From Ligustrum vulgare (taxonomy: Eukaryota; Streptophyta; Magnoliopsida; Lamiales; Oleaceae): a DNA stretch of 64,000 nt. This document shows positions 17,381 through 48,019 of the stretch, piece by piece. Position numbers and translations under genes: made by a program. A model generated the notes under the pieces. The model was not told where the DNA came from. It did not search any database and was given only the letters and a program-made list of their open reading frames with translations. Each line of letters opens with the position of its first letter. The stretch's first letter is position 1. The stretch covers positions 7,767,501 through 7,831,500 of the forward strand of contig OY743189.1 of NCBI GenBank assembly GCA_963555705.1, given 5' to 3'.

Positions 17381-19129
17381 AAATTTTGTTGTTTCCTAAT
17401 ATAACCTTCAGTTTCAATTTCAAAAAACGTCTCCCTTTTCAAATATCCAATTAGAATTACCCGACTCTAACTTACCCCTTCGAGCTATCCTCTTCTTTCC
17501 CGTGGTTTTCTTCTTCGACAAATCAATTTTTCAGCGCCATCCAACCTATTCGAATTGTCATTTTACCATTGATTTTGTATATCAGGTATTTCTTTTTTTG
17601 TCATAATTTTTAGCCTGAAATGCTTCGTTTGATTTAAGTGTTTGAATTCTCTCGATACATTTATGAATGAATATAAAGTTATTATCGATATTGTCAGTAT
17701 TTAGTTTCAAAACCCTAATTGAACTCTTAGCTATTGGATTATTTAACTGATGATACGTTGATCATTGCGGAGTTTTCGACCCAGAGCCGTTTCGGATCAC
17801 CTATTTTCTTCAAATTTTCAGAGTAATTTTAAAGTTTAAAGTTTTCAGGTAACTTCTTTTTTCTTAGCATTTCACGTTTGGATTTTTCCTAATGATTCTG
17901 AAATGTAATCTTTAATCATGGTTTTGAATATTTAGTTAGTGCGTGTATGAGATCACTTGAGTTTTGAACACGAGCATTGGTTAAAGAAGGTTAGAAGTTG
18001 AGGATTTTCAAGGTAATATTTGATCAAAGAAGTAACATTTTAATGTTCAAAGCCTCCAATAGGTTTTGAGGTAGAAACAACATTTTTTGTATTTCCTACT
18101 TTTGGAGAGGAAAATTTTAGTTGTAAAAAGGAGTCGAATTTGTGGAATTTATTGAGCATGAAATTGGAGCATCAGAAGCATTATTAGCTGAAGATGAATA
18201 GTAAATGCTAACTTAGAAATTGGGAACTTGGACAGCTGAGTTTTTTTTGTTTGTTATCATTTAATTAGTGACACAAGTTTGCAATTAATACTTTAATAGC
18301 AATATTTAATTTGTATGAATGGAAAGATTCCATTTTGCTATGGTGTTGATGGTGTAAGATATGAGTGGACAGATAAAGTCTACTTGACAATTTGAATAGT
18401 TCATTAACTTCCACATTTTCTTGTTATAATATTAAAAGTTCTTAATATTTGGTAGATTAACCTACCATCAGGGGGTTAACCTACCTCAATGTCGATTAAC
18501 CTACCATCAGCAATTTGTAAATCGCCCTTTGATGGTAGGTTAACCTACCGAGAACCCTGAATTGGCAAAATGATTGGAATGATTTGGTGAGGTTATGTGG
18601 CTCGATTTTTTTACCTTCGGTTACTAGTTTTTGATATTGTTTCCTTCTCTTCCAATTAATATTTATGGGTGTAGCATTAAAATGATGTAGTAATTTATAC
18701 CAAATCTCTGTTGATGATGCCATGAAAGAGAATATAATGAAGAGTTAACAGATGGTTTCTAAATCTAATTTGTGATTTTTGTTCACTATTTATTGGAATA
18801 TGGTTTTTGCATTCATGGTTCTCTACGATGATGTGTTCTTAGTTTTTGTTTGTGAAGAGGTAGGTTAACCTACCCTAGAATCAAAAGGTAGGTTAACCTA
18901 CCAGAGTAGGTTAACAGACCATCTGGTAGCTTAACCTACCAGATGGTAACCGACCATCTGGTAGGTTAACCTACCAGATGGAAGGTTAACTAACATTTTG
19001 TTGTTAGAACTTTTTTATGAACTCTGTATTGTTGTTTAATATTTTTCTGTGTTTCTTCTTTATTTTCTTGTCCATTTTCATCGCGTAATTAGCACACTCA
19101 TTTGACTAAAATTATTTTATATTATGCAG
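17381..19129 (+). other. 5' region of the MULE DUF1985/Ulp1 gene
   Basis: No protein-coding frame. It probably contains the promoter and an untranslated leader with introns: several CAG-GT junctions occur, and the last acceptor ATTATGCAG lies at 19121-19129, directly before the ATG. The block 18454-18985 has GGTTAACC palindromes. Confidence 0.5.
18454..18985. repeat. GGTTAACC palindrome cluster 1 (left subterminal)
   Basis: Around ten sites of the form GGT(A/C)GGTTAACC(T/G)ACC or half sites, in two groups (18454-18552 and 18860-18985), for example GGTAGGTTAACCTACC near 18890 and near 18960. Confidence 0.9.
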
Positions 19130-20389
19130 GATGGAGTTTCAAGTAGACATCGATGATTGGTTTACAGGAAAATGTACGAACCTCTGTAACCTAGATGCTA
19201 TAGATGAGGTTTATGGTGCACTGGATGCAAATCATCGACAAGTTTTCCGTTGCTCTTGTTTTCGAAAATTCTATCATATGAGAAAAATGCAATTATCTGG
19301 CCAACTCATCCATGGTCTAGCATTGAGAATCCTGAAGTCCGTGAATAAGAATGAACTATGGTTTGGAGTTGGGAATAAAAAGGCTGCAAGATTTTCATTC
19401 GACGAGTTCACTCTGATTACGGGGCTGAACCCCGAGGATGAAGCATTGTACAAAGATCAAATACCGGTGACCAATACACTGGCAGAGACATATTTTGATG
19501 GAGCTAATAAGATTATTCCCGCCTAGTTAAAACTTTCCTTTGACAATTGCGAAGAAATGGAAGACAAGTACAAATTGGGTTTGGTGTATGTCTATGAGTC
19601 AATTTTGAGATCCAAACACTACAAGACATCTATTGATATGCTTGTCTTGAATATAGTTGACGATAGGCATTTATTTAATCAATATCCATGGGGAAGAAGG
19701 TGCTATAATAGCACGATACATGATTTTTTTAGGAGTTGGGAGAAATTGCAACAAAACTCAAAGAGGGGGGGGGGGAAGCGTCTATAATTACTCTCTTGAG
19801 GGTTTTCCTTACGCACTGCAGGTAAATAGCAAACACTTGTAGTTCTTTATACTGTGCTTTATTTATAGATGTTAGAATGAATAAATGATCATGTCTATTT
19901 GTAGGTATGGACTTATGAGGCTTTCTCGGCCATTGGCAATGATTTTGCAACTAGGAAACGGGTGAATAAAGTTTCGAGGACGGAAAACTGGACGGCTACT
20001 GGTGTATTTGAACAAAATGAAATCAATTCAGTTTTAGACCATCCACATGTGAGTAACTGTTACATGGTTATTTTATTACCTTCACACAATAATGTAATTG
20101 GTATGTGATTATTAACTCTGTCAAATTTTTAGCTCGAAGTTTGTGTCAGACTAATGGCTACAGAGATTGAGAAGAAGCAATGGTACATGCAATTGTTTGA
20201 ATCTTTTCCAAGACAAGTAGACCCAGTCCTTGATGCTTATATCCACGAGGATGGAGGTGATGTTATGGCTGATAATGAAGAAGGGGACGACAATGTGGAT
20301 CTTCTCCAGGGAGATAGAGTCTCTCCTCTTTGACATGATGAAGATCCAGGCAATGGGAGAGATCAAATTTCTTCTCCAAGACAGGTATA

Positions 20390-21170
20390 TATAACCTACC
20401 AAAGAGGTCGGTTAACCTACCGTTAACCTACCACTTTTGTATGTTCACGTACCCTCAAATTCAAAAGGTAGGTTAACCTACCATTAACCGACCACTTTTG
20501 TATGTTCACCTACCCTCAGATTCAAAAGATAGGTTAACCTACCAAAGCGGTCGGTTAACCTACCGTTAACCCACCACTTTTGTATGTTCACCTACCCTCA
20601 AATTCAAACCTCAAATTCAAACGTTAGGTTGACCTACTAAAGAGGTCGGTTAACCTACCATTAACTAACCACTTTGGTAGGTGTTAACGCACCCTCAAGT
20701 TAAAAGGTAGGTTAACCTACCAAAGAGGTAGGAGGTTAACCAACCCTCAAATTCAAAAAGTAGGTTAACCTACCATTAACCGACCACTTTGGTAGGTGTT
20801 AACCTACCCTCAAATTCAAAAGATAGGTTAACCTACCAAAGAGGTCGGAAGTTAACCTACCCTCAAATTCAAAAGGTAGGTTAACCTACCAAAGAGGTCG
20901 GTTAACCTACCGTTAACCGACCACTTTGGTAGGTGTTAACCTACCCTCAAATTCAAAAGGTAGGTTAACCTACCAAAGAGGTCGGAAGTTAACCTACCCT
21001 CAAATTCAAAAGGTAGGTTAACCTACCAAAGAGGTCGGTTAACCTACCATTAACCGACCACTTTGGTAGGTGTTAACCTACCCTCAAATTCAAATGGTAG
21101 GTTAACCTACCAAAGAGGTCGATTAACCTACCGTTAACCGACCACTTTGGTAAGTTAACCTAGACTTTGT
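20390..21170. repeat. GGTTAACC palindrome array 2, inside intron 3
   Basis: Dense array filling an intron (donor after 20384, acceptor AG at 21252). Units start CTCAAATTCAAAAG, then GGTAGGTTAACCTACC, AAAGAGGTCGGTTAACC, GTTAACCGACCACTTTGG and TAGGTGTTAACCTACC. About ten starts of CTCAAATTCAAA are spaced mostly 50-85 bases. Copies differ by point changes and by loss of a sub-block, so array growth is old or ongoing by unequal exchange. Confidence 0.95.
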
Positions 21171-21519
21171 TGTTCCTTTTGTGATTTTCTTTATTTCCTT
21201 GTCCATTTTCTTATTGAATTAGTGCTTACTTTTAATTATCTTATTTGCTTAGGTTCCATCTTCAACACCTGATGCTGCAAATGAAAATCTATAGGCTAGT
21301 CAGTCGGTTCCTCATGTACATTAGCCTTCTCATGATTTGGACTTCATATTGGAGGGCTTGAGGATGCACATAGACCAGATTGTTTCGCCTAGATTGTTCA
21401 ATTATATAGATTAGATGGAAGAGTGATTGCTGTCAGATATACTATTAGTAAACAACAAAGTTAATAGCATGATGGAGTCGATGCAATGCTATAATGAAAC
21501 TTATGCAAATTATCAGTAC

Positions 21520-22005
21520 TGGGAGGATGGCCCCAATGACGGATGGGATGGAGGTGATGGATGTGAGGGAGAGGGAGGTGAGGGATACAAAGGAGGCAGG
21601 GGTAAGGGATACGGAGGAGACGGAGGTGGCAGCTGCTAGGGATATAGAGGAGGGGGAGGTGAGGGAGACGGAGGAGGCTGAGGTGAGGGATACGGAGGAG
21701 GTTGAGATTAGGGAGACAGAGGTGACAACTCTTAGGGATAGAGAGGACGCGGAGGTGAGGTAGACAGAGGAGGTCAGGGTGAGGGTTATGGAGGAGGCGG
21801 GTGTGAGGGAGATGGAGATAAGGGAGACAGAGGTGGTAGCTCCTAGGGATATAGAGGAGGCGGAGGTGAGGGAGACGGGGGAGGTAGAGGTGAGGGCTAC
21901 GGAGGAGGCGGGTGTGAGGGAGACGTAGGAGGCGAGTGTGAGGGAGACAGAGGTGGTAGCTCCTAGGGATACAGAGGAGGTAGAGGTGAGGGAGACGTAG
22001 GTGAC
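21520..22005 (+). repeat. Coding minisatellite GAGGTGAGGGA(G/T)AC in exon 4
   Basis: A purine-rich imperfect repeat of about 24 bases. In one frame it encodes EVRDTEEA/EVRETEEA-like octads with alternating acid and base residues; in another, Gly-rich sequence. Stops of the type CTAGGGATA break it in the second half. It joins the DUF1985 part to the Ulp1 part. Confidence 0.85.
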
Positions 22006-22577
22006 ATCTCCTATGAATGATCTACCTACGAAACAGACGGGAAGAACATATTCACGTAATAAGAGAAGTCTAGCAAGTCAGATACCCGAAGCTGATGTGA
22101 GACCGATGGAAAAGCGACTTCCAAAAAGATCAAAGTACTTATCTTCTCCATTCACAACCGAGGAAAAGAAGAGAAATTTTTTGGATGGCTCTACATTTCT
22201 TCCCTTTCAGAAGATTGATCCAGTGAAGGATAAGACATTTGATACTTGGTATTCACATTTACACGATGGGTAAATATCCTATCTATATTTTTATCAATTC
22301 ATTTTTTTACAATTTATGTTCTTTAGTTGATATTGTCATTTTTAGTGTTGCATACGAGTTATACTGGGTCAAAATAAATGACGCGAAGAAGTGGTGTAAG
22401 GATGTTATGGATTCAGGTGCCTGGATCGACTCCTATGTAAGTAAAACTTAAGGATTTGATCACGTGTTATATGTTTTTTTCTTAACTATTTGATAATAGG
22501 TTTTTTTGCCTTCAGCATGTTGATTTGACGATGTATTTGTTGCGGCTTCGGGCAAAGAACTACTCTAGTATCCAAGG

Positions 22578-25450
22578 TATAATATCGGATGGCTCCTTCG
22601 TAACTTAAAAGAGCTCAAAGTGCAACTATAGAATCTCATGGACAAAGGTTTTATTCAACCTAGTTTTTTTTTTTCCATAGGATGCTCAGGAGCTATACCT
22701 GAAGAAGAAAGATGGTTTTATGAGACTTTGCAAAATCGATTTTAGACATGGCAAAACCAGTTTTATGAAGTTGTGATGAGATGTTGAGATTAGAAGTGAT
22801 ATGATTTTATTGAGACTTTTATGAGAAGAATTATGAAATTTGAGATTTAAAGATTTGATTCTTAATTATTGGGAATTAAGGAATGGATATTGTGTTTGAG
22901 TAAGTGAATTATTCCTCTATTTTTAGAGAAATTTATAATGTTGTTTGGTCTTGTAACTAAGAAATTTTGGGAATTTGATTTGTGACATATATTTATAAGT
23001 ATGACTAATGGGTGGTCATTTGAGCCAATTAATGTATTGAAGGAAGTGAGATATTGATATTGGAAACTATGATTTGAAATTGTTATGTTGAGGAATTAAG
23101 AATTGATTTTCTGGGATATCAAGGTATACATGAAGTTATGTGATGACTTGATGCGTATATTGGGAAATGTCAAGAAGATGAGTGAAGACAAATGTTATGG
23201 CATTAGTGGAAAGAATTTTAATTATTCTTAGGAACTTATTGATTATTAGTGAGAAATGATCACTTATATTGGAGAATATTATAAATTATGATGGTAAGTG
23301 ATAATACTGTTGATTTATTTTGGAAGTTGATTGGTAGATGATATGTTAAAGATTTGGTTATTTACATGCAATATGATTATTTGGGAAAGTTAGTTATAAT
23401 TATTGGGAGATGTTGAAAATATTTTATAGTGAGATGCCTTAAAGGAGTAACCATTTATTTGAAATGAGAATTTGGGGACATATGATTGAAGGTTTGGGAT
23501 TATGTGAGATAATGATGATTGTCATAAGGTCATTTGAATACAAAAGGTACAAGAGATAATTATAAGGAATAATACGATTGCTCTTATGGTGAGAACTGAA
23601 GGTGACGATGTATTGAGATTATGAAATAAGTTGACTTTCCATGAATAAGTTATGCTATATTTGGTTTTAAGTGGAATTCGAATAAAGAGAAATCTCAGTC
23701 ATGGAAAATAAATCAGGTTTCATCGTAAATTGAATGATTCACTGATGTACGTTAAGTTTTCATTGATGATACTAAAATATCATATGAGAGATTGTTGGAT
23801 GAAATTGATAAAAGAAACTTTATCAGGTCCTAGATTTGTACAAGTATTGTAGAAGTAATGCATCTGATCGGAGTAAAGTTTATGATAGTACATACCATGA
23901 AATTGTGGAAATTATTATTGATGGTATCTTGATTCAAAAATAAGAAATGAAATTTTAGGCAATTGTCCTTGTGGATAGAATTTGTGGAAAATGAGAATAA
24001 GACTTCAGAATGATTACTTATTATGGAGTAGTGTGCAGAAGGAGTGACAATGACAGAATTTAAGATTTATAGAGATTGAGAGATTGGTATATATAAGATT
24101 TCCGTGATTTATTGATGTATGAATGTTCATGTGATATATATGATGGTTATTATACTTTGATCTCAAGGAGATTGATATGATTAAATGTTGAGGTCATAGG
24201 GTATGGTGACAAGTGGCATGTCACATGATTATCACAAGTTATGGTGAGTAGACAGTTAATGAAGGTCATGATTGTCCTATGGAAGAATAGTGTGATGATA
24301 TGTTTGAACTAATCAATGGTTTGTTTATGACAAGATAGATGAATTTATTTAAAATTTTGGTGATGTAGTTGTGGTTACTCATTGTTGGTTGTGCATTAGA
24401 TGTGAGTAGAGCATATTATTCATTTTGAGATCTCCATGGAATATACATAAATTTGGATTGGTTGAAATCTAAGATGATCATTAGTCTAACTTTTACTTAT
24501 TGTGGAGTTGTATCTTTGGGTTGAGTAAACTTGATGAGGAATTCTATATGAATCACAAAAGTCTTATTCATTGGTGATAGGTTAATGATTTATTTATAAA
24601 ATACTTGGTTAGAGTATTGTTGTTATGATGATTTTGAAAGCATGAATTCTTAAATTAGTACCTTGGCTTTAGTTTTAAGATGAGTGTATGATGCTGAATA
24701 CTTGATTACAATATGTAAGTATGGGTTACAGGATTTAAGTTAATTCTTCGATTTTAAAAGAAATGTCAGCATGTTCAGAAAGGATTTCGTTTGTAAATCT
24801 TTCCAGAAAGATTCTGTCAAAGTTTTAGTATTTCTACTGTATATTTTGGTATGGACGTTAAGTTTCAATAATTCTGGATTATAAAGTTTTAATTTTGTCA
24901 ATCTTGATTTTAGTTTTAAGAATGTGATCAATCAATATATATATTAAGGTTTAGACGTTAGAATAGATCCTATGAAAGGCTGGAAATGGAAAGTTAGTGA
25001 ATGGATTCATAAGTGGGATAATGTTGGTTGATGATCTCCTACAACAATAGCTATTAAACTTCGATCCGTATTGAGTACCATACGATAGAAAATGTAGATT
25101 GCCGGTTCATTGGCATGAAGTAGGAGAAAGAAGATTATTGGGTCCAGTAATAGTACAGCAGACAACTGAAGTTGTTGAAATAATTCGTCAGGGAATGAAA
25201 ATTGCACAGAGTTGACAGAAAAGCTATGTGGACAGAAGAAGGAAACCTTGGAATTCGTTGAAGGAGATGTGATCTTTTTGAAGGTAGCCCTTATGAAAAG
25301 AGTCATGAGGTTCGGGAAGAAAAGAAGGTAACATTAGTTAAAGTCTTTTGGAGGAATCATGCAGTGGAAGAGGCTACTTGGGAACGCGAAGATGAAATGC
25401 GTACTAAGTATCCACAAGTTTTGGTAAATTTTAATTTCGAGGACGAAATT
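22578..25450 (+). pseudogene. Decayed Tekay pol (RT to chromodomain)
   Basis: Near 22582-22740 the frame shows YRMAP, LKELKVQL and KKDGFMRLC, the N-terminal part of Gypsy RT. The middle is so decayed that no frame survives beyond some 60 codons. At 25090-25320 integrase C-terminal signatures return (CRLPVHWHEVGE-like, QKSY, FLKVALMKRVMRFGKK split over frames). At 25340-25410 a WRNHAVEEATWEREDEM stretch is the typical chromodomain end of Tekay elements. Composition is strongly A/T-shifted, as expected after long methylation and C-to-T decay. Confidence 0.8.
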
Positions 25451-25470
25451 TCTTTTAGGGGGTAAGGAAT
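25433..25470 (+). other. Hairpin and polypurine tract of the Tekay element
   Basis: Stem AATTTCG-AGGA-CGAAATT (25433-25450), then TTTAGGGGGTAAGG before the LTR at 25471. Confidence 0.8.
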
Positions 25471-28249
25471 TGTAAGACCACTTTTCATTTTTCTTACAAT
25501 TTTAAATTTCCACGTAATATTGTGGTGAATGTTATTATAAATTATAATTTTATGATCTTTAACATCTATAATTGGAATTATCTTGCAGTGGAAGGACTTG
25601 GACGCCGTCTCGATCAATGTACCAATTAAAATGTTTATAAATTGTTTACGTACAATTCTATGTCTAATTATTTATCTCAAATTGTTGCTTTCCAATTCTA
25701 TTGTAATTGAGTAGTAAGTTGCCTAAATTGTATTAAATTGAAGTTGGGAAAAGTTTGGTGACACTTTGGAATTTTATTTGAAAGTTATGAGCCTACATTA
25801 CTAATTTATGAGAGTTGAGGGACTAAATTGCAATTTAGCAAAAGTTAAACATTAAACCCTAACCTAACCCTCATTCTCACCCTCTCACTTACGATCTCTC
25901 ACTCTCCGTCTCAACTCCCTCACGCTCTCTCTTGCTCTATCCGATCTCTCTCTCCCTCACGACCATGTCTCTCGTCGGGCGCATCGCCGGCCACCTCACT
26001 GCCGCCGAGTCACCACCGCGACACCACCACCATACCTTGGTGTAAGCCCCTCTTCTCCTTCCCTTCCTCGCCCGCAAACACCTACTCACACTGCCACACG
26101 GGTTTGCACACACACACCCGCTCACACACACAGAGATTTATATGCTGAATTTTATGTATAGGTTGATGTATAAATGGATTTAATGTAAGTATGTACGAAT
26201 TTTCTCACATTTTCAGATTTTGGTTTTTGGTTGATTTTCGAATTTTACCTTAAATTAAGGATTTAATGATGGTTATGTGTGTGAGTATTGATGTATGGGA
26301 ATGTGTATATGATTATGTATGTATAGGTGTATGTAAATATGTAGATTTTGGATTTTTATGTGGGAATATGTATAAATTCAGATTTTATGGTAAGTTTGAG
26401 TTTCGAAAATTATAAATTTGTTTAATTTAAGTTCATATTAAACTTTGGTAAGAAGTATAAAATTTTTGATTTGGGTAATGCATATACATACAAGTAAAAT
26501 TCGGATTTTATAATGTTTAAATTGGTAAATTGATATTGGGTAAAGTTTGAGTTAAGTTAAATATTTTAGTTTGAGTTTGAATTTAAAAATGAGAGTCTCT
26601 AACGTGGATTGAAATTTATCTCTTATTTTCGAATATGGTTTTATGTGTTTTGGTCATTATGTAAAGTCACGCGTGGGTTAAATTGAAATTTTAATCTCGG
26701 TTAATGTTTGATTATTATTAAAATGAATAACGAATGTGTTTGTGAACAAAAAATTACATGTTTTGTCGAATGGTTTAAATCTTTTGATTTCGAGCATTGT
26801 ATGGAAGTATTTAATATATCTTAATACCTTGTTTGGAATAAATGATCACAAGAATGAAAAGGGAAAGAAGACTTATTGTTTTAACTTGTTTAATGTAATG
26901 TTGAAAGAATGATGAATATACCAATTTGAACTGAAAGTATATTTTATGCAATGAATGAATATGACTAGTGTTGTTGGTACATTGACGGCACGGGCAGTCG
27001 AGGCTCCTCCACTTGCAAATCAAGAAAACGGTAAATTACTAAGGACTGCAAGTAAGTAAACTTCCCCCTACTTTCATCAAAGTTGAATGTTAATGTGGAA
27101 TTAATGTGCTTAATTGACATTCGTGTTAATTACGGAATTTTAATGCTTTTGGTCTACCATATGCAATTATGTGTAGTTAAGGAGATGTTCAAGCATGCAC
27201 GTTACATGTCATTGCATCATCAAGCATGCATTGGCATCGAAATGGGAAAGTCAAATGTTTTAATGAAAGGAATGTGTCAAAGTGCAATTTTTGTCAAAAA
27301 TTGTGTATCCCAAGTTTTTGAAAGAATGGGTGTACTTCTATGTCATGAAAGATGCGAGTGGGAAATGGGGCGCGGGGGACCGGCGTACCCGAATGTAATG
27401 AGCCGCTTTGCGGTGGAATGAAGTGAATGAGCCGCTTTGCGGTGGAATGAATGTAATGAGCCGCTTTGCGGTGGGAAAGTGAATGTTAAACCGCTTTGCG
27501 GTGGAAATGCGCATGTTAATCTGGTTCCAAATAAGAATGGCCCACTGTTATCTGATTGACTAGAAGTTACATCAAGTGAGCTCACGATGGAATGAAGTGA
27601 AGTTTTGAAATGTTAAGTGAAAGTTCGAAAAGTTTGAAAGTTTTGGAAAGTAAAGTAAATGGGGATACATACATGGAATTTTTGAAAAAGCATTCATGTC
27701 ATAAGCATGCATTCATGCATACAGTTTACTTACTGAGCTTTAGCTCACCCCAATCCCTCCCCAACATTTCAGGTGATGAAAGTTAGGTGATCCGAGGAGA
27801 GCACTCGGCAGCTGACTCAGGCTATACCCGCTTCAACCTTTTTAAAATAAAGTTAAATTAGAATTTATTTCAATTTCTCACTATTTATTCTTTAATTCAT
27901 GTATTATTGAGGTTAAATCACCTCTTGTTTCATTTGCTAAGTTTATTTACTTGGAAATGTATCGTTGAGGAGTTTGGGACTTATTGAATGGTTTTGATGA
28001 TTATGAGATTGAATGAGTTGAGATGTATGCTTTAAAAATGGTTTTGAAGTCCCTCTACAGGTTGGTTAAGTCCAATTTACAGAGGAGACTCTGTCGAAAT
28101 TTCTGCTAAAATTACATCCGAGAAAAATGGAACGTTTAAATGTGTAAACGTTTTAAATTCCGCATGGTTTTAAATGATTTATTTCCGCATTAAAAAAAAA
28201 AAGGGAAGTTAACACCTAGGTTTGAGATTCTTGAACTTGGGGTGTTACA
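25471..28249 (+). repeat. Tekay 3' LTR
   Basis: Starts TGTAAGACCAC and ends GGGGTGTTACA (2779 bases), the usual termini of Tekay/Del LTRs. The GC-rich part 25930-26110 and the open frames in it (for example 25937-26131) are LTR sequence, not genes. Confidence 0.85.
27398..27510. repeat. Minisatellite with CCGCTTTGCGG hairpin, four copies
   Basis: The unit GAGCCGCTTTGCGGTGGAATG occurs at about 27401, 27430, 27460 and 27490. Each contains the inverted repeat CCGC-TTT-GCGG. Confidence 0.9.
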
Positions 28250-28557
28250 GCAGGCATATCTACTGTGGATGGTGATTTTACAATTGAAAGGGTCGAGAAT
28301 ACTGCAAAGCAAAGTACACAGTAAGTCTTTTGAGTATGATAAATATTGTGTCCTTATTGTTTTTTTTAATTTGCTACAAAAATATATTCATTCTTTATTA
28401 TCTCATTAATTGCAGAGGAGATTGTGGTATTTTTACCATTAAATTTATTGAATTTTTAAGTGTTGGAGGGGAAGTTGATAAAGTCAGTAACCTATATATG
28501 CTCCAGTGGAGAAAGAAATTGGCGATTGACTTATACGGATTTGATTATGATCCTTAA
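28250..28557 (+). pseudogene. MULE DUF1985/Ulp1-like gene, 3' end (C48 peptidase C-terminus)
   Basis: Two pieces: 28254-28320 (GISTVDGDFTIERVEN) and 28416-28557, joined over an intron with the acceptor TTGCAG at 28410-28415. The second holds RGDCGIFTIKFIEFLSVGG; the Cys of GDCG is the catalytic cysteine of Ulp1/C48 peptidases. The stop TAA at 28555-28557 is a natural end. The catalytic His and Asp would lie in the part missing at the Tekay junction. Confidence 0.85.
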
Positions 28558-28714
28558 ATTTCTATAACTGACTATTTTTTGTATTTTTGTAAATTATAAT
28601 ATCTGTATATGATTTTTTTTTTTTTTTTTTTTTGTAAATGACTAAAATTTTTAAATTTATTGTTTGGGATTTTCATGACCTGTCCACTTGTATATATATT
28701 GGTTCTGGATACTG

Positions 28715-29140
28715 GTAGGTTTTTCAGCAGGTTAACCTACACATAAAAACTCTGGTCGGTTCAATGGTAGGTTAACCAACCATTAACCTACCCATTAATA
28801 GACATGGTCGGTTATGGGGTAGGTTAACCTACTATTAACAACTCAAGTCGGTTAAAGGGTAGGTTAACTGACCTTTAACCTACCCGTTAACAGACGTGGT
28901 CGGTTACGGGGTAGGTTAACCTCCTCATAAAAACTCAGGTCAGTTAAAGGGTAGGTTAACCAACCAGGTCGATTTATGAGGGTTTAAATGACTGAATAAC
29001 CTAAACCCTAAACACTCAAAAACCAACTAGGTAGGTTAACGTACCCCTTAACCGACCACTTTGGTTAATAGGTAGGTTAACCTATCTCTTAACCGACTTG
29101 GTTAGTTAATGGCTGTGGTTAACCTACCTAGTCGGTTATC
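28715..29140. repeat. GGTTAACC palindrome cluster 3 (intergenic)
   Basis: More than ten sites behind the Ulp1 stop, in longer irregular units such as GGTAGGTTAACC, GGTCGGTTA and TTAACCGACC. Confidence 0.9.
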
Positions 29141-29159
29141 AACTTTTGAGGATCGATTT

Positions 29160-29750: not shown

Positions 29751-29859
29751 AATCTTTCTTTATTTTTAAATGACTAAAAAATTTGAATTTATTGTTTGGG
29801 ATTTTCATGACATGTCCACTTGTATAGGTCTAATTTGATTTGTATATACTGGTAGGTTT

Positions 29860-30240: not shown

Positions 30241-30285
30241 ACTACAGAACTGAATAGTTTGCATTTATGCCATTTGATCAGTATG

Positions 30286-36221: not shown

Positions 36222-36803
36222 GAAGACTTACGACCGTAATCAAAGTCTCACGGCCGTAACCCGGGATTTTGTAACTTTTAATTTTTGTTCAGAAGGTAGC
36301 TTACGGCCGTAATATAAATAGTCACGGCCGTAACATATGTTTTCAATTTTTATCCGTAGCTTGCTTACGGCCGTAAGAGTATAAGTCACGGCCGTAACTT
36401 TGCGCCGTAATTAAAACCTAATTTTGGGCTTTTTAGTTTAGGTTGAATTCTAGTTTATTTTTAGTTGCTTTATTTTCTTTGCCTATATATATGGCTTTAT
36501 TCAGCATTGTAAAACACAACTTTTTATCTTGAGATTAATGATATTGAAGGTGAGATATTCCCTTATATTTTCTTCGTGTTCTCGTCGAACAAATTGAACT
36601 TATCAAAGGATTTGACAACCTTTGTGGCGTTCCCTCTTTGTGGTTCTTATCTCCGCATCGTAACGGGTTTTGGGTTTAATATACCCATAGTTCTTGCATC
36701 GTGAGGACGGGGTTGCATTGTAACCGTCTATTATCTTGGATTTTAGAGCTTTCCGGCGTTTAATTCCGCGTGTTCTTGGTGATCCTCGTATCGGATCACA
36801 TCA
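36222..36803 (+). repeat. 5' LTR of the CRM-type element, second part
   Basis: Equals 44062-44643 with about eight differences. Holds TTACGGCCGTAA/TCACGGCCGTAA pairs (36228-36400) and a TATATATATGG string at about 36484 that may be the TATA box. Ends CACATCA. Confidence 0.9.
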
Positions 36804-36805
36804 TC

Positions 36806-36818
36806 TGGTATCAGAGCC
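36806..36818 (+). other. Primer binding site of the CRM-type element
   Basis: TGGTATCAGAGCC, complement of the initiator tRNA-Met 3' end, two bases after the LTR. The following leader (to 37460) is A-rich and non-coding. Confidence 0.95.
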
Positions 36819-37460
36819 TGTCTCTAAATCCAATTATTTAGTATTCCAGTTCCTTTTCTTTTATTTCCAGTTATTAATCATTAAAAAAAAAAAAAAGAAA
36901 AAAAAAATTTCATTCCAATTCCTATTTCTTGAAATTTCTCCAGAAAATTCAAGATTTGCCAATTTCTGTTTTCTTGTTCTTGATTATTCTTGTTGCATAG
37001 GATAAAAAAAAAATAATAATAATAAAAAATTCCGAAAATTACAAAAAAAAAAAAAAAAAAAAAAGAAAAGAGATCGTTGTTGATTTGAACAAGAAATCAA
37101 GAAAATAATCTTGGGCAAATCTTTCCAACAAATCCTTGTTTCCATAAAATTCCTTATTCTTGTTTCCATAAAACTTCTTCTTGCAATAAAATTCTTGTTT
37201 CCATAATTTCTTTCTTAAATTTCCTAATTCCAATATTTTCCATCAACTTTCCTTATTTGCACTTTGGGGTTTATTCCACAAGGACCAAATTCGTGACTAG
37301 TTTAGTGGGTTCTTTGAGAACGTGGGAAAAAAGGGAATAGAGAGGAAAAAGGTAGAGTGGTGGGAATAATAGAGGGAAAAAGCCAAATTGAGTGATACAC
37401 GAGCGATAAAACACGTGAGGATCTTTATTTAATTTTTTTTTCTTTTCTTTATTACTAACC

Positions 37461-39106
37461 ATGTCACAGAAAGAAGTTTCGTCGACGGAAAAGGATCTTC
37501 AAGATTTTAAAATGCTTGCAATGGTGGAGGAACGGTTTGCAAAATGGGAGGCGAGGTTGGATGCCAAGTTGGAAGCAAAATTTGGTCCACAATCCGGCGA
37601 GAATGTGGGAAGGGTAAATAATCCGGGGGAGACACGTGGTGCGGGAATTGCTCAACCACGTCAGGATCAACAACGCAATTTTCCTAATTTACAGAGACCA
37701 CTAAGGTATGACTTCAACCCACAATTTAAAGCTAGGAATGAACGTGTTGAGGTTGTTGATAGTGATGAGGATAGTGGTGAATTGTCTATTACTAGTGTTG
37801 GTAGGAGACGAGATCGGGGAGAAAGACGTGATAGGGGATATAGGCGTGATCGTAGGGATGATGTCGATGGACATGTTGGTAACATTAAAATGTCCATTCC
37901 CTCGTTTCAGGGTAAGAGTAATCCGGACGTTTATTTTGAATGGGAAAAGAGGGTAGAATTATTTTTTGATTGTCATAATTATTCTGAAGCTAAAAAGGTT
38001 AAATTGGCAGTCGTAGAATTTACTGATTATGCTATAGTATGGTGGGATCAATTGGTTACTAGTAAAAGGAGAAATGGGGAGAGGCCAATTGAAACTTGGG
38101 ATGAGTTGAAGGCCCTTATGAGAAAACGGTTTGTGCCTGGACATTACTATAGGGATCTCTACCAAAAACTACAAACCCTTTCCCAAGGTAGTAAGAGTGT
38201 GGAGGATTACCATAGTGAGATGGAGGTTGCCATGATTAGGGCAAATATAGAGGAAGACCCGGAGGCAACCATGGCTAGGTTTTTAAATGGTTTAAATCGA
38301 GATATTGCTAATGTTATTGAATTGCAGCATTATATCGATTTGGAGGAAATGCTTCACATGGCCATGAAGGTGGAGCGACAACTAAAAAGGAAGGGAACTT
38401 CAAAATTCTCTACAACTTCTAATTCTTTTGGTAAGTCTACATGGAGCGGGACTTCTAAAAATGAAGGGGTTGTGCAGAAAAATAAATTTGAGGCACCAAA
38501 GGGAAAAGTAGAGCCACCCAACAAAGGTAAAATTGCTTCTGATTCTCAAACTCCTAGGACTAGAGATATTCGTTGTTTTAAATATTCAGGTTTAGGACAT
38601 ATTTCTTCACAATGTCCAAATAAACGAATATTGGTTATGCGTGACGGGGTATTAAGTTCGGAGGATGAGAAAGAGAGAGAAGTGGAGGATGAGTATAAGG
38701 ATATGCCAGCTCTAGAGGATGTTAGTGAAAATGATGATGGGGACTACACAGTAGCTAAATCACTTGTCACTAGGACAGCCCTTAGTACTCAAGTTAAGGT
38801 GGAAGAGTCGGGTGAGCAGCGAGAAAATATATTTCATACTAGGTGCTTTGTGAATAACAAGGTGTGTAGTTTGATAATAGATGGTGGTAGTTGTGCGAAC
38901 GTTGCTAGCACTACTCTAGTGGAGAAATTATGCCTACCTATACTAAAACACCCTAGGCCATATAAGCTACAATGGTTAAATGAATCGGGTGAGATTAAGG
39001 TGAATAAACAGGTGGTAGTTGATTTGGCGATTGGGAAGTATGAAGATAGGGTGGTTTGCGATGTGGTACCCATGCATGCGGGGCACATCTTGTTGGGAAG
39101 GCCATG
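37461..39106 (+). pseudogene. CRM-type gag and protease, interrupted by a solo LTR
   Basis: Open from ATG 37461 for about 549 codons until the inserted LTR at 39107. Order: N-terminal acidic/coiled part, Arg-rich RRDRGERRDRGYRRDRRDD (~115-135), retrotransposon gag domain (~140-300, with DYAIVWWDQLV), zinc knuckle near residue 373, acidic linker, protease with IIDGGSCANVAS and GHILLGRP. The knuckle reads C-FK-Y-SGLG-H-ISSQ-C: the second cysteine is Tyr (codon 38583-38585), which should abolish zinc binding. The insertion falls right after the LLGRP motif, so the frame beyond 39106 belongs to the LTR. Confidence 0.9.
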
Positions 39107-40657
39107 TGATAAGTGTATTTTATATACTTATTTATCTATCAAAATTAGGATATTATAATATTTTTCTTGAATAAATTCTACGTAATTGTTATTATTTTTC
39201 ATTATTTCAGGTTTTTATCCCAAAATGAAGAAAAATGAGGAATTGAAGAAATTATACAAAAATTGGATGGAAAAACTCAAAAGTGGAGCAAATTGGAGAA
39301 AGTCAAGACTCAAGGACCTACTTATCATATATGAAAGAATTGAGTAACTTGAAGGACAATTTATTTTACATGGGCTTAGGGTTAATTTGTGTATATATTT
39401 ATATATATACACATGTTGCTAAAAAAAGAAGAGGAGGAGAGGGCAGCCGAGAGAGACAGAAACCGTGAGTTGAAATAAAAAAGGGAGGTTGCTGGTGTTG
39501 AATTGAGAGGAGACAAGAATAAAGGTTTGGCAGAATATATATTTCAAAAGTGGTGGGCTTGCATTGGAGAGAGACATGGCTACGGATCAAATAAAAAATG
39601 GAGCAGTAGCATTACTTTGTTGATTGGAAGAGAAGGAATATATATATATATATATATACACACAAAACCAGGCAGCAATAATTTGGAATAGGATTGTGTG
39701 GCTGGAATTAATTGGTGGATTGATAGAAAAACAGGGGCTGAACTTGGGAATATATACACAGAATTCGGCTGGTTGCAATCGAAGAAGACGGCTGATGTTG
39801 TTCTTGATGGTGAAATTCTACAAACTCCGAATTTTGTTTACATTATTTACTGTTTTTAATTTCAAGAACATGAATAGCTAATTTAATAATCGGGATTAAC
39901 GATATAGATTTAATGTTTTAGTTGATTTTAATTCTCAAGTTGGTGCTTTGATATTTACGTATTGATTTTATTATTGCGTTTAATGCTTGAATTGCTTGAT
40001 CACCAATTCATGAATTAATGGTTGTTTTCATAATCCGAGAGGTGAGTTGACAATTAGATCACGTAATAAAATCCGGCAATTTCAACAAAAAGATAGAGAT
40101 ATGAATTTGTGGTTGCATGTGGTCACTTAGGAATTCTTAGGAAATTTAATGCATTTAGCTAAGGAGAACTCTGACCCTCTGTAGAGATACATGGTTGACT
40201 TAGTTAAATAGGTCTAATTTGAACTCGAGAGAGCTAAATTAGATATAAGCGTGAATTCGACAAAATACAATTTTAGAAAATAACTTGAGATGAGAAATTA
40301 AGCTAGAATGTTATTTCGAAATCGTTAGTCCCGATATTCATTCAATTGCTAAAAATCCACCACGTTTGTTTCTTGCTTTCGTTAATTGTTTTGTTAGCTA
40401 GTTTTAGTTTAATTTTCTATTTTCATTTTAATTACGTTGTTTCTTTCATTTATTCTCAATTTTATTGTCGTTTTTGGATTATTTTGCATTCTATTTTCCT
40501 AGTTTGTTTTTGTTTTAGTTTAGGAATTTTAGAATCGAAGTAAATCGATAATGAATTAACTAGTCCTCGTGGGATCGACAACCCGGACTTAAAAGTCCAC
40601 TTTTACTACTTGTTAGCGATATCGTACACTTGCGATATTATTTTTACCAACACCATG
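39102..40657 (+). mobile_element. Solo LTR of a Tat-type element in CRM pol
   Basis: LTR 39107-40652 (TGATAAGTGTATTTTATA ... TTTTTACCAACA, 1546 bases) between two copies of CCATG (39102-39106, 40653-40657). It starts like the Tat LTR at 36221 and ends with the block CCTCGTGGGATCGACAACCCGGACTT typical of Tat LTRs, but its middle is different, so it is another family. A solo LTR results from recombination between the two LTRs of a full insertion. Small open frames in it are not genes. Confidence 0.9.
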
Positions 40658-43600
40658 GCAATTCGATAGGAAGGTTATTCATGATGGCTTTAAAATAGGT
40701 ATACCTTCACTAAGGATGGGAAAAATATCAAACTAATGCCTTTATCACCTCAACAGGTCTATGAAGACCAATTGAAATTAAAAAGTGAGGAAGAGAGAAA
40801 GAGGGTCGGGACCACGTTCCCGGAAAAAGGAGAGTTGAGTGAACAGAAGAGGGTCGGGACCACGATCCTGGAAAAAGGAGAGTTGTGTGAAAAACCGAGA
40901 GTTGGGACCACGATCCCAGAAAAAGGAGAGGGTGTGAAGAGTGCCAGTAAAAGAGAGAAAACAAAAGTGAGCTTCTACGCAAAACAGAGTGATATCACCA
41001 AAGCTATTTCTACAAATAAGCCAGTGATTTTACTAATGTACAAGGAATCTCTCCTTGTACTTGATGAAGCTAACCACTCCCTCCCCAGTTTAGCTGTGTC
41101 TTTTTTGCAGGAATTTACAGATTTATTTCCCGAGGAGATTCCTAGTGGGCTGCCGCCAATTCGAGGGATTGAACACCAGATTGACTTCGTGCCAGGAGCA
41201 GTCATTCCAAACAGGCCGGCTTATAGGAGCAATCCTGAAGAGACCAAAGAGCTACAAAAGCAGGTTGAAGAGCTGTTGAAAAAGGGCTATGTTCGGGAAA
41301 ACATGAGCCCATGTGCAGTACCAGTTTTGTTGGTGCCAAAAAAAGATGGGACTTGGAGGATGTGCGTGGATTGTAGAGCAGTCAACAATATTACGGTAAA
41401 GTATCGCCATCCCATACCTAGACTTGATGACATGCTTGATGAACTATATGGTGCTTGTATTTTTAGCAAAATAGACCTTAAGAGTGGTTATCACCAAATT
41501 CGTATGAAAGAAGGTGATGAATGGAAAACCACCTTCAAAACCAAATATGGTTTATATGAATGGATGGTTATGCCGTTCGGCCTCTCAAATGCACCTAGCA
41601 CTTTTATGAGATTAATGAATCATGTCTAGCGTGCTTACATTGGTAAATTCGTTGTGGTATACTTTGATGACATTTTGGTATATAGTAAGAACTTAGGTGA
41701 TCACATTGAACATTTAAGATCTGTTTTGGAAGTTTTAAAAACTGAAAAACTATATGCTAATTTTAAAAAGTGTACTTCTTGCATGGAAAAGGTAATTTTT
41801 CTTGGTTTTGTCGTTAGTGCAAATGGTGTTGAGGTAGATGAGGAGAAAATTCGTGCTATTAAAGAATGGCCAACTCCCAAAACTATTACGGAGGTTAGGA
41901 GCTTCCACGGGTTGGCTGGGTTTTATAGGAGATTTGTTAAAGATTTTAGCACACTTGCAGCACCACTCACAGAAATAGTCAAGAAAAGTGTAGGATTCCA
42001 TTGGGGGGTAGCACAAGAAAATGCTTTTAAAATGCTTAAGGATAGGTTATGTTCCGCACCGGTTTTGGCTTTACCTAACTTTAACCAAACCTTTGAGATT
42101 GAATGTGATGCATCAGGAATAGGTATTGGAGCCGTTCTTATGCAGGAAAAAAGGCCACTTGCATTTTTCAGTGAAAAGCTGAGTGGGGCAGTTTTGAATT
42201 ATCCTACCTATGACAAGGAGCTTTATGCTCTTGTTCGTGCCTTGGAGACATGGCAGCACTATCTGTGGCCAAAGGAATTCGTCATACACACTGACCACGA
42301 GTCACTGAAACACCTCAAAGGACAAGGTAAGCTAAACAAAAGACACGCCCGTTGGATGGAACTCATTGAGACTTTTCCATACGTCATTCGCTATAAGCAA
42401 GGTAAGGAGAATGTGGTAGCCGATGCCCTTTCTCGCAGGTACGTACTTCTAAACTCTTTAAATGCGAAGTTGCTTGGGTTTGAATATATAAGAGGTATGT
42501 ATGCCAATGACCCTGATTTTTCTATCATTTACGCTTCATGTGAAAAAGGTGCAATTGATAAATTTTATAGGCATGATGGCTATTTGTTTAGGGAAAGTAA
42601 ACTTTGTGTGCCTAATTGTTCTATGCGTGAATTGCTAGTACGTGAGGCTCATGGTGGGGGGTTAATGGGACACTTTGGTGTTACTAAGACATTAGAAACT
42701 TTACAAGAGCACTTTTATTGGCCTAAAATGAAAAAGGATGTTCACCATATTTGTGAACGGTGCATAACTTGTAAGCAATTTAAGTCTAGAGTCTTACCAC
42801 AATGTTTGTATACACCTTTGCCCGTACCTAATGAACCTTGGGTAGATATATCCATGAATTTTGTGTTAGGTCTGCCTAGGACAAAAAAAGATAGAGACTC
42901 GATATTTGTGGTGGTAGACAGGTTTAGCAAAATGGCGCATTTTATTCCTTGTAATAAAACTAATGACGCAACAAACATAGCTGACCTATTCTTTAGGGAG
43001 GTTGTGAGACTCCATGGGGTACCTAGGAGTATTGTGTCTGATAGGGATGTTAAGTTCTTAAGCTACTTTTGGAAAGTCTTGTGGGGGAAGATGGGTACTA
43101 AATTATTATTTTCTACTACATGTCACCCGCAAACTGATGGCCAAACGGAGGTAGTTAATAGGACATTAATCCAACTTTTGCACACTGTAATAAATAAGAA
43201 TTTAAAAAGTTGGGAGGAATGTTTGCCATTTGTGAAATTTGCTTATAATCGATCAGTACATTCTACTACTTCATGTTCACCTTTTGAAGTTGTTTATGGT
43301 TTCAACCCGCTAACTCCTCTTGATTTAATTCCTTTACCTGCAGATGAACAGAGCAGTTTGGACGGGGCGAAAAAAGCTAAGCTTGTGAGAGAGCTTCATG
43401 AGAAGGTGAAAGGGCAAATTGAAAAGAAAAATGAGCGTTATGCGACTCATGCCAACAAAGGTAGGAGGCAAGTGACGAGCCCGGTGATTGGGTGTGGGTG
43501 CACTTGCGAAAGGAGCGATTTTCAATCCAAACAAAGTCTAAGTTGCAGCCAAGAGGCGATGGACCTTTTCAGATCCTTGAAAAGATAAATGAGAATGCAT

Positions 43601-43715
43601 ATAAACTCGATCTTCCAGGCGAGTATAACGTGTCTGCTTCTTTTAATGTTGCTGATCTTTCTCTGTTTGATGCAGGTGATGATTCGAGGACGAATCATTT
43701 TCAACAGGGAGGGGA
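40658..43715 (+). pseudogene. CRM-type pol: protease end, RT, RNase H, integrase
   Basis: After the solo LTR the reading resumes with PWQFDRKVIHDGF (from 40652), is frameshifted near 40695, and is open from 40736. An 18-19 residue unit with RVGTT(F/I)(P/L)EKGE occurs three times near the start. RT: VPKKDGTWRMCVDCRAVN, SKIDLKSGYHQIR, YFDD at 41660-41671. One TAG (41627-41629) just before YFDD. RNase [34 protein letters not shown]. Integrase: HHCC zinc region, [36 protein letters not shown], so D, D and E are intact. A frameshift near 43480-43490 moves into 43492-43965, which continues 250 bases into the 3' LTR. Confidence 0.9.
43679..43715 (+). other. Hairpin and polypurine tract of the CRM-type element
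   Basis: Perfect stem ATGATTCG-AGGA-CGAATCAT (43679-43698), then AACAGGGAGGGGA next to the LTR start at 43716. Confidence 0.9.
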
Positions 43716-44643
43716 TGATGAGTTCCGGAGTGGCTCAACGAGCGTTGACCCGTTGCACGTGCCCGTAGGACCAATAACGAGACAAAGAGCCAAAAGAATC
43801 AAGCAGGCAATGCAAGGATTCATGCAAGCGTGGATGGACGAGTGCTCGAGTGCAAAGACTTCATTTACGTTGCATGACAAAGTGGAAGAAGAACCAAAGT
43901 TGTTACTACGCATTTGGAATAAAGAACAACAAGAAATTAAGGCTGAAGCATTCTCACGGCCATAACCCTACTTTTACGGCCGTAAAACCATGTTGGCGGA
44001 TTTTTTACAGAAAGGCCTTCACGGCCGTAACATATCTTCTTAGGGCCATAAAAGTAAAATAGAAGACTTACGGCCGTAATCAAAGTCTCACGGCCGTAAC
44101 CCAGGATTTTGTAACTTTTAATTTTTGTTCAGAAGGTAGCTTACGGCCGTAATATAAATAGTCACGGCCGTAACATATGTTTTCAATTTTTATCCGTAGC
44201 TTGCTTACGGCCGTAAGAGTATAAGTCACGGCCGTAACTTTGCGCCGTAATTAAAACCTAATTTTGGGCTTTTTAGTTTAGGTTGAATTCTAGTTTATTT
44301 TTAGTTGCTTTATTTTCTTTGCCTATATATATGGCTTTATTCAGCATTGTAAAACACAACTTTTTATCTTGAGATTAATGATATTGAAGGTGAGATATTC
44401 CCTTATATTTTCTTTGTGTTCTCGTCGAACAAATTGAACTTATCAAAGGATTTGACAACCTTTGTGGCGTTCCCCCTTTGTGGTTCTTATCTCCGCATCG
44501 TAACGGGTTTTGGGTTTAATATACCCATAGTTCTTGCGTCGTGAGGTCGGGGTTGCATTGTTACCGTCTATTATCTTGGATTTTAGAGCTTTCCGGCGTT
44601 TAATTCCGCGTGTTCTTGGTGATCCCCGTATCGGATCACATCA
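43716..44643 (+). repeat. 3' LTR of the CRM-type element (complete)
   Basis: 928 bases, TGATGAG ... CACATCA, followed by GTAAC (44644-44648). The first 250 bases carry the C-terminal part of pol (VPVGPITRQRAKRIKQAM). From 43953 to 44250 there are about nine ACGGCCGT-centred palindromes, mostly in TTACGGCCGTAA + TCACGGCCGTAA pairs. Confidence 0.95.
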
Positions 44644-44692
44644 GTAACCTTATAAATATGAACAATATTAGCAAATAATACTACCACAATTA

Positions 44693-47222
44693 CTAGACTA
44701 TTGTTCTATTGGATAGTGGTACTCGATCATTACATCGTTGTTGGTTGTGCCCAGATGCACCACACCTACCACACTTACGTGTCGTACAAAACTCTCCGGT
44801 CGAAGTTATCTTACTTTTACGCTTACGTCCACTTTGTCTTTGTTTGATCAATGTTGGAAAGATATTCAACATACACCTAAGGTGTTCTGGAACTTCCCAA
44901 TCAATTTCATTTGGTAGAGGCATTATAGTATCAGCGTATGCTGCTTTCCAAACGGCAGTAGTATAATACGAAGAGCACAAATCATATGCGGAATTTCCTA
45001 CCTGTCGTGAAGCAGTGATAGCGTGCTCACATGGAAACTTATCCAACTGAAACTGCCCACATGTGCAAGTTCTACCGATTAAGTTAACAACAAAATGATT
45101 GATTTCATTACCCACATCAAACATATATTCGTCCATAGGATCCGCTACGAACTTTTTGGACAACTCAAGTTTCTTCCGAATTTTTTCCTCCATTGCCGGG
45201 GTCAGTATACTTGTACAGTTTTCTGCATTGATGCACCTCTTATAATACCATTTTTGCAATTTGCACCTGATACACTCAACCAAAGCAAGTACTGGACACT
45301 CTCGAGCTTTTCTGAATACCAAGTTCAGGGACTCTGCATTATTTGACGTCATGATGTTGTAACGGATCCCTGTAAAGTGTGACCTAGCCCAATGTTTATA
45401 GTCAGCCTCTTTTAAATAACCCCAAAGGTCGGGGTTCCTGCTAAGAATCTCATCCATATGTTTATTAAATTCTTCAACTTTATATGTGTATGTCGCTTTC
45501 TTAAACAATGTCACCATCCCAGAGATGCGATACTTGGCCTTTATGTTGCCTTGTATATGGTATATGCAATGAGCGTGATGCGCATTAGGAAAAACATCTC
45601 TTACACCCTAGAGTAGACTCCCATTCCTGTTAGACATAAAGACCAGATCTTCAATATCACCAATTATTGTCTTCAATTTTTCAAAAAAACATTTCCACAG
45701 CTCATTATTCTCAGAATCTACTATACCCGATGCGAGAGGATAGATTTGCATATTTCCATATTGACATGTTGCCACTATTAGTGTACCTTCATATTTTTCT
45801 TTCAAGAATGTTCTGTCCACAGAAATTACTCTCCGCATCGACGAGTGAAATCCTTGAATGCATGGTCCAACCGCCATAAAAATGTACTTGAAGCGATGAC
45901 TACTTGGGTCGGTGTCAACATATATCACTGTGCCAGGATTAGTTCTAACCAAATTGTGGGAATATACGACCAATATAGCATAGCTACCATTAGGTGAACC
46001 CATTAATATCTCTAAGGCATGTTCTTTAGCCGTCCATGCTTTCTGATAGCTCATACTTACCCCAAACTCCCGACGAATGTCACTAATGATGTTTACAGGT
46101 CTGTATTCTTGATTTGGATTTTGAAAATTATGCATGACATGTGTGCCGATAACCCATGACCTCACTTTTTTATGATCATTTCTATGTATACCCAAAGAAC
46201 AAGTATGTTCACGTACATAACGAGGAACTTCAAAAAAATCACACTCCTTGTACTTCGTAGCATGCAAACGCCATTTTACAATTGTCATCTATGCAAATAA
46301 TTTTGTATGTACTCTTATTTGATTTTTTAACTTTGAATTCAAAGTTGTGCTTCAATGCAAGCAAATGAATGTGTTGTTGTAGATCTTTCTTGTTCTCAAA
46401 CAACTGATGATCTTTCAAATCCTCTTTCTCAGGAATCACATGTGACGTATGAGCGTACCTTAAACTTTATCCAGGCTCAAATGTGTGGCCTGATGTGCTA
46501 CCACATGCAGACAATGCAACAAGATCCTCATTAGTAAAACGAATTTCAGCTTCATTCTGTCGAACTAGTTCTTGTCAACATGTAGGTAAATTAGCATTGT
46601 TCCCATTTTCCTCAACAGTGTCACCATTGTTGTTTCGAACAATCTCCTAATCATTCCAGTAATAATCTAAACCGCAGTTCCCATCATTGTCATCATCCAA
46701 TTTCATCTCAAAATCTATATCATTATGGACCTCATCTTCAAATTCATCATTAACTGCTACATGTTCATGTTCAACATAATCTACAACATGTCCTTGTTCA
46801 AATGTGTTTATTGTATGTTCAAGTTCAACATGATCTATATCATGTTCATGTTCGACAATACTTGCTTCAAATTCACGTTCAATGAGATTCTTGCTTACAA
46901 TTGTTACACAAAGGGGAGACTGGCCTTTCTGTTGAGTTCTAGGAGCCATTTCACTTGCCTATTTGAAGTAATCTTGATTGGTGGAACAGAAACTTGTGTA
47001 TTATTATTAGGGAAAAGAAATCTCATCTCCAAAATGTGTAAAGAAGAATCAATATGAAGAAGTTCTTGTACATCATCATATAATTCTGTATACGTTGCAT
47101 TTTTTGACAAAAAAAATTGCTTCTGTAGCTTCTTCATTACTCCAATTCCATATCCATTTAGATTGATCATTCTTCACAAACTCACCATAGTAACAAATAG
47201 GAATTAATGTAGTATCATTCAT
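44693..47222 (-). pseudogene. MULE transposase (MURA type)
   Basis: Start ATG 47222, stop 44693. N-terminal domain (47222-46950), acidic spacer, MuDR DNA-binding domain (QLFENKKDLQQHIHLLALKH, CIDDNCKWRLHATKY), MULE catalytic domain (VISVDRTFLKEKYEGTLIVA, GIVDSENNELWKCFFEKL), SWIM finger C-T-C-G...FPCEHA and a C-terminal CCHC knuckle CGRCGASGHNQQRC. Breaks: frameshifts near 47090 and 46915, stops at about 46647 and 46560, a one-base A insertion near 46284, TAG at 45608-45610. The second catalytic Asp of the usual SDR motif is Asn (SNR, codon 45629-45631). The product would bind the terminal repeats and cut the element out. Convergent with the Ulp1 gene. Confidence 0.92.
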
Positions 47223-48019
47223 ATCTGCATTTAAAAAATTGAAAAATGTTACGTATTAACACCAAAATTCATTAAAGAAATTTTTTTTTTTGAATAATTA
47301 AGCAAGCAAGTTAACAATTGGTTAGCAGACTGCAAAGTTGCTTAACAACCTTCACTCAGGTAGGTTAACTGACTTCATTGGTCGATTAACCAACCTACTG
47401 CAAATTTGGTTAACCAACTTCACTAAGGTAGGTTAACCGACTTCATTGGTCGGTTAACCAACCTATTGCAAAGTTGGTTAACCAACTTCACTAAGGTAGG
47501 TTAACCGACTTCATTGATCGGTTAACCTACTTCAGTCAGTTGGTTAACCGACCATGAAGTCGGTTAATCGACCTGTGTGCGTAAAATTATATTATTCGCT
47601 ATCTAGAATGAGATTTTTGCAATGGATGAAGTTTACACTAAAAAATTCATCCCAAAACAAGCAAAACTCATATAAATACATTTTAAACAAATCAAAGCAA
47701 CTCAAAATAAGATTAATTTTGGGATGTCTTACCAATATCAAATGCATAAAACTTAGGGTTTTTGTCAACATTTGAGAAAATGATGAATAGTTTTGCTACA
47801 AATCCAGATAAGGAGTATCTGGAGAAGATCACAGATAGTAAAACTGAGTTTTTTATAATGTGGGTAGTTGAGGGGGAGGATGTTTGTTGGAAGGACACAA
47901 TTTTGAGAGAGAGATAGCCGTTGGTTTTTCTTGAGGTTTTTTCTGTCATTTTAAATTGTTAGGTAAGGTTGAAAATTTAACAAGATAACAAGGATAATTT
48001 TGTCTTTGTATAAGGATGG
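47223..48019 (-). other. 5' region of the MURA gene, right subterminal part of the MULE
   Basis: Non-coding. Contains palindrome cluster 5 and probably the transposase promoter and leader. Short open frames (47554-47775, 47713-47949) show no domain. Confidence 0.55.
47330..47575. repeat. GGTTAACC palindrome cluster 5 (right subterminal)
   Basis: About ten sites in units of roughly 68 bases: AAGGTAGGTTAACCGACTTC, ATTGGTCGGTTAACCAACC, AAGTTGGTTAACCAACTTC. Here the AACC half sites are mostly ACCGAC or ACCAAC. Confidence 0.95.

Follow-up and report, generated by a model that had tools for sequence, protein, structure and literature searches.

Why a short palindrome should accumulate in five clusters within a single MULE of Ligustrum vulgare is the question raised by this locus, and a possible answer is that the element recognizes itself. 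Proteins that do so have been described: VANC proteins bind short motifs in the non-coding tandem repeats of VANDAL elements and remove methylation (PMC5735166, PMC10398659). In the 64,000-nt stretch of DNA that was analyzed (the window), the core of the palindrome, GGTTAACC, was found 41 times against a mean of 0.74 in 100 shuffled versions, none of which held 41 or more. Every one of these cores falls within native MULE sequence (10,764 bases), and the other 53,236 bases have none. A wider form, GGTNGGTTAACCNACC, spans 16 bp and was matched with up to three mismatches at 61 places, all of them inside the five clusters (Table 1). An earlier note, made from the letters of this DNA alone, had described both the five clusters and their avoidance of nested elements, and both descriptions held, with the cluster bounds refined. 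Between arrays the 16 bp are 78–89% identical, and the 15-bp flanks agree at 0.23–0.34, which is at or slightly above the 0.27 expected by chance; the motif, and not a longer repeat unit, is therefore what unites the arrays. A duplication relates clusters 3 and 4, and cluster 2 probably corresponds to an intron, as judged by eye from its splice sites. Among the titles and abstracts searched, no paper with the GGTNGGTTAACCNACC motif was found; absence from print is not claimed.

Table 1. Features of the MULE and of the DNA inserted in it (window positions).
Feature	Position	Strand	Remark
Left target-site duplication, 10 bp, TGTGAGTTAG	17277..17286		Exact repeat
MULE	17287..48102	+	Duplication at both ends; colinear with un-nested L035 and L037
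Motif cluster 1	18451..18995		Two runs, 4 + 6 sites; upstream of DUF1985 start
DUF1985-coding stretch	19131..19784	+	One in-frame TAG; model and fold match
Motif cluster 2	20406..21164		22 sites, between coding stretches
24-bp tandem repeats	21568..22025	+	Between DUF1985 and Ulp1; 12 copies, nearly all at 24-bp spacing
Ulp1-type (Peptidase_C48) start	22120..22563	+	Homology to L035; cut by first insert region
First insert region	22564..28248		No motif site; absent from L035 and L037
Ulp1-type end	28249..28558	+	GDCGIF read by eye; colinear with L035, L037
Motif cluster 3	28726..29128		9 sites, downstream of Ulp1 part
95-bp tandem array	29159..29738		Without motif, between clusters 3 and 4; kept in L035, L037
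Motif cluster 4	29863..30243		10 sites
Second insert region	30297..44663		No motif site; contains Ty3-type element
MuDR-type transposase, two open frames	44693..46288	-	PF10551 E 8.4e-10, SWIM E 9e-8
Motif cluster 5	47359..47573		10 sites, subterminal, upstream side of transposase
Right target-site duplication, 10 bp, TGTGAGTTAG	48103..48112		Exact repeat

The element is bounded by the two copies of TGTGAGTTAG, which are its only occurrences in the window; the target-site duplication was examined in this copy. Two un-nested copies elsewhere in the genome, L035 and L037, share three aligned blocks with the window, and from these alignments the element ends and the approximate bounds of the inserts were placed, leaving ~10.8 kb of native sequence (17287–22563, 28249–30296 and 44664–48102). 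A scan for target-site duplications together with TIRs yielded no strong TIR pair and nothing convincing, and the ends of the element are loosely alike by eye. The transposase reads leftward, towards the rightward DUF1985/Ulp1 gene region; its relative in L037 matches PF10551 (7e-22) and PF03108 (3.9e-9), and its named kin come mostly from Lamiales (Primulina, Henckelia, Olea). The Ty3-type element of the second insert has its LTRs at 36221–36803 and 44061–44643. As a side observation, these LTRs are 98.6% identical, and pieces of the same family lie in an unusual order at 30291–30846 and 35903–44643, with 30291–30527 matching 43716–43952 and 30527–30846 matching 35903–36221.

Within the gene region, the DUF1985 domain is matched by Pfam PF09331 at ~19326–19718 (E 3.2e-14; 53.5 bits, cut-off 35.1). 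A protein search with the DUF1985 of the window alone returned nothing at E 1e-3; a seven-row profile found 12 proteins, and homology to VANC21, a DUF1985 relative whose complex with DNA has been solved (9lnj), was established by profile (E 4.8e-30) and also by model. The fold match was obtained with a model from a 12-row alignment (pLDDT 75.9) and is to be read with caution, since models made up largely of helices may reach high match scores by chance; the deep branches of a tree that included L035 were weak. One of the homologues, P0121, carries PF10536 (plant mobile domain) together with DUF1985 in precomputed domains, a hint at kinship of the two. Downstream of DUF1985, the 24-bp repeats apparently code for repeated peptides in the frame read from the sequence. 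Pfam gave no C48 match in the window itself; PF02902 was matched in L035 (1.8e-9), downstream of DUF1985 on the same strand, and in L037 (6.1e-12), on the strand of the DUF1985 gene, and the DUF1985 protein is probably joined to a Ulp1-type protease domain. The Pfam scans returned no DUF287. A stop in DUF1985 and the interruption of the Ulp1 part have broken the window copy, which would at present serve as a target and no longer as a source.

The motif is abundant in the genome and confined in its distribution. Across 1.38 Gb, 2649 exact copies of GGTNGGTTAACCNACC were counted versus a single match to the reversed control, and among the matches listed, three clusters on contig 1 corresponded to the full elements L035 and L037 and to L036, a locus described below. 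A genome search with the DUF1985 of the window returned 150 scored matches of 2468 candidates, ~80 of the 150 covering nearly the whole domain at an identity of at least 78%; below that value, fragments and a few decayed copies aside, identity falls to 38–44% (seven sister loci) and lower. Close relatives with 54–88% DUF1985 identity carried the motif in all 14 sampled, at 3–15 sites per ~850 upstream bases, so that no sampled relative with the same DUF1985 lacked the repeats, and the number of sites in the cluster-2 region ranged from 22 in the window to 36 in L037. Outside the family, motif density was not equal: GGTTAACC was absent from 102,192 bases around 30 other DUF1985 loci, from 54,306 bases of other MULE loci and from 19,206 bases of sister loci, for a chance expectation in unrelated DNA of ~1 per 100 kb. 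The arrays are restricted to the MULE family of the window plus one hitchhiker, a TIR-bearing MULE with a captured array. About ten DUF1985 relatives had equal scores and an open frame (E 2.3e-123, 243 aa), pointing to a recent burst of the family.

The earlier note had also proposed comparing motif and DUF1985 sequence across families, and families with other DUF1985 sequences do carry other words, though not every one of them has an array. Six of the seven sister loci (38–44%) were taken (L044–L049), none of them with GGTTAACC. Eleven copies of AATAGACC were found in L045, where no word rose above 6 in 200 shuffles; a word related to AATAGACC is present in five copies, not above shuffles, in L047 and in L048 and in four partly degenerate copies in L049, while L044 has four AGATATCT and L046 has no copies of the word and no clear array. 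More distant loci, collected by the Pfam search, were likewise devoid of GGTTAACC (0/30), and 21 of these 30, close kin of each other and thus not independent, carry TGTGACC, with 226 copies on the DUF1985 strand and 0 on the opposite one against ~9 expected on both. Copies of TGTGACC within one locus have differing flanks, and one complete element of this family (L042 + L043) comprises a transposase and DUF1985, along with a weak match to C48 (E 1e-5) and 41 sites; in L042 the sites form single-orientation blocks that switch along the element. Four copies of the core of a TTCGGTCGACCGAA-type palindrome were found in L007/L038, a family that rests on this one locus plus two GGTCGACC in L019. 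The word of L039 is weak (7 CTGTCGA versus 0.67), and neither L040 nor L041 has a clear array. A de novo 9-mer search of 34 loci and the window gave clear words in two families, that of the window and that of TGTGACC, and most of the others did not rise above shuffles. A GGTY core, noticed post hoc, is present in most of the four clear words (GGTNGGTTAACCNACC, TGTGACC, AAATAGACC and TTCGGTCGACCGAA).

It had been claimed that a change of the fourth base in one half of the palindrome is often accompanied by a change in the other half that keeps the dyad; counts in four loci did not support such covariation. The dyad is kept at this base in 26 of 48 window sites with up to two mismatches versus 24.7 by permutation (P 0.37), in 23 of 38 sites in L035 (23.0 expected), in 7 of 12 in L036 (7.7 expected) and in 25 of 59 in L037, which is below the 32.6 expected by chance; the fourth position varies in either half irrespective of the other, A and C being the usual bases. 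Lone half-sites also occur, as 21 of 84 exact TTAACCNACC in the window have no good partner, with 19 of these 21 reading in the sense direction of the DUF1985 gene and many being copies from tandem duplication. From the palindrome alone we infer that GGTNGGTTAACCNACC may be read by a dimer or by a pair of inverted monomers. Neighboring sites are frequently 21, 41–42, 52–53 or 63 bp apart. Sasaki et al. are reported to have found in 2022 that sites are phased with the DNA helix, and 10.5 bp was chosen for the test on account of this periodicity. With the arrays of the four loci pooled, the cosine score is highest at 10.5 bp (0.638), and for distinct spacings the effect is moderate (P 0.0026 at 10.5 bp, but 0.054 with the period left free); the window by itself peaks near 10.25 bp. 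The TGTGACC family favors 21 bp, with a peak at 11.0 and a distinct-spacing P of 0.09, which is not significant.

We compared the element with known VANC systems. VANDAL21 (Hiun) of Arabidopsis thaliana is likewise a MULE with a transposase and a DUF1985 protein, whose DNA-binding domain is homologous; a short motif is likewise repeated in its intron, intergenic and terminal non-coding DNA, and VANC21 also contains tandem peptide repeats (PMC5735166). The motif of VANDAL21, YAGTATTAY, is however non-palindromic and in one orientation, unlike the palindromic GGTNGGTTAACCNACC (PMC5735166). Single orientation is seen in VANDAL21 and is not an established hallmark of the group; the palindrome lacks it, and the lone half-sites lie mainly one way. 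Furthermore, VANC21 has DUF287 where the window element has a Ulp1-type domain, and its function was tested, whereas the window protein is known from sequence. VANDAL6, with its VANC6, is a related MULE with another motif (AGTTGTCC/AGTTGTAC), and copies of it occur also in the unrelated element AT9TSD1 (PMC5735166), a parallel to the hitchhiker L036/L064/L065. Closest in domain content are the KIU (Kaonashi) genes, in which a Ulp1-type domain accompanies a VANC-type gene in non-TIR MULEs, a capture of Ulp1 reported to be conserved in eudicots (PMC13317346). According to a 2026 review citing Sasaki et al. 2022, these Ulp1-carrying VANC genes recognize in Arabidopsis specific motifs in KIU-carrying VANDALs, so the suggestion that such a motif was undescribed for a Ulp1-type MULE did not stand (PMC13317346). 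VANC-type recognition with Ulp1 is already known, and the window element would therefore belong with these systems, its palindromic motif being the unusual feature.

The best explanation for the arrays is, in our estimation with a probability of roughly three in four, that this MULE has its own VANC-type anti-silencing system. The DUF1985 protein, probably with its Ulp1-type protease domain, would bind GGTNGGTTAACCNACC, of which dozens of non-coding sites, many of them about two to six helical turns apart, flank both genes. Such arrays would gather the protein at high density on the window's family only, and the gathered protein would lower DNA methylation, letting both genes be expressed. That the DUF1985 of the window family binds the motif, and that demethylation follows binding, are predictions. 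The self-recognition proposed in the earlier note is supported by the homology of DUF1985 to VANC21, by array placement (upstream of DUF1985, inside the probable intron, past the Ulp1 part and in subterminal DNA close to the transposase) and by the other words of other families; the half-site covariation that formed part of it was not.

Sequence comparison does not show which protein reads the motif, because DUF1985 and transposase both differ between families. The arrays could be sites for the element's own transposase, serving end recognition or transposition with no involvement of DUF1985. MuDR transposase binds element ends, one cluster is subterminal (47359–47573), and in the TGTGACC family the transposase has diverged as well (its best piece being 37% identical), so that motif changes could track it equally well. 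We consider this unlikely, since the majority of sites lie well away from the ends (22 of 61 in the probable intron and 19 of 61 downstream of the Ulp1 part), a DUF1985 relative is the protein in the solved VANC21-DNA complex, and a captured array lies inside a MULE family whose relatives encode a transposase of only 25–32% identity.

Slippage or unequal exchange could also have multiplied a chance sequence without function, as tandem units of 53, 84 and 137 bp make up most of cluster 2 and copy number varies greatly between copies (22 in the window, 36 in L037). Neutral expansion of this kind is nevertheless highly improbable: the same 16 bp recur in arrays with unrelated flanks, the motif is present in all 14 sampled relatives down to 54% DUF1985 identity, and the other words of other DUF1985 families are scattered, with unrelated flanks. 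Since palindromes can fold, they might instead act as RNA, either as hairpins or as sources of small RNA, or they might be sites for a host factor. Both possibilities are very unlikely, given that the word of the TGTGACC family is not a palindrome and occupies comparable places, and that a host site is not expected to differ between MULE families of one genome.

The hitchhiker, the TIR-bearing MULE with the captured array, is represented by L036. This locus is without a MULE gene and has its array between inverted repeats of ~160 bp that are 96% identical, for which the genome returned 40 scored matches of 61 candidates. Twelve stretches were taken and ten loci counted, L036 included: nine had 7–16 sites and L072 a single one, and in seven of the ten the sequence covered a single inverted repeat, so that their counts are without element length. 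Two further cases had no sites: L066, a stretch with both repeats, whose transposase shares 25% identity with the one in the window family, and the pair L074/L075, which lie 14.6 kb from each other and whose transposase piece shares 32%. A target-site duplication was sought in the copies and none was established. In L065 the captured piece continues ~190 bp past the array, to window position 21352, which places its origin in the DUF1985-Ulp1 gene region. Capture alone may be chance, because MULEs often pick up gene pieces; spread with the array suggests use of it. Parallels have been described in Arabidopsis, where the unrelated element AT9TSD1 carries copies of the VANC6 motif and responds (PMC5735166), and in a Pack-TYPE element with possible VANC6 repeats (PMC12312487).

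A more specific reading combines a palindrome made of overlapping inverted half-sites, which a dimer or pair of monomers would probably read on one helical face, private words per family, mostly with GGTY, and an array stolen by an unrelated TIR-MULE that spread; we put it forward tentatively, as a little short of even odds. If true, it would amount to a series of specificity changes made by nature, together with a parasite of an anti-silencing system. On the question of how VANC protein and target word change together, this one genome offers ~80 near-full-length DUF1985 relatives, and with sister families that have other words and the solved VANC21-DNA complex, the changes can be mapped. Moreover, capture of an array by another MULE family suggests that arrays act in trans on whatever carries them, in which case they would be candidate address tags for targeted demethylation in plants.

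Finally, beyond the right end of the element, endogenous plant pararetrovirus fragments were recognized at 50177–53666 (movement protein E 7.4e-20, zinc knuckle and a weak caulimovirus coat domain), and the window stretch 53231–54171 recurs with 95% identity adjoining the MULE copy L035.
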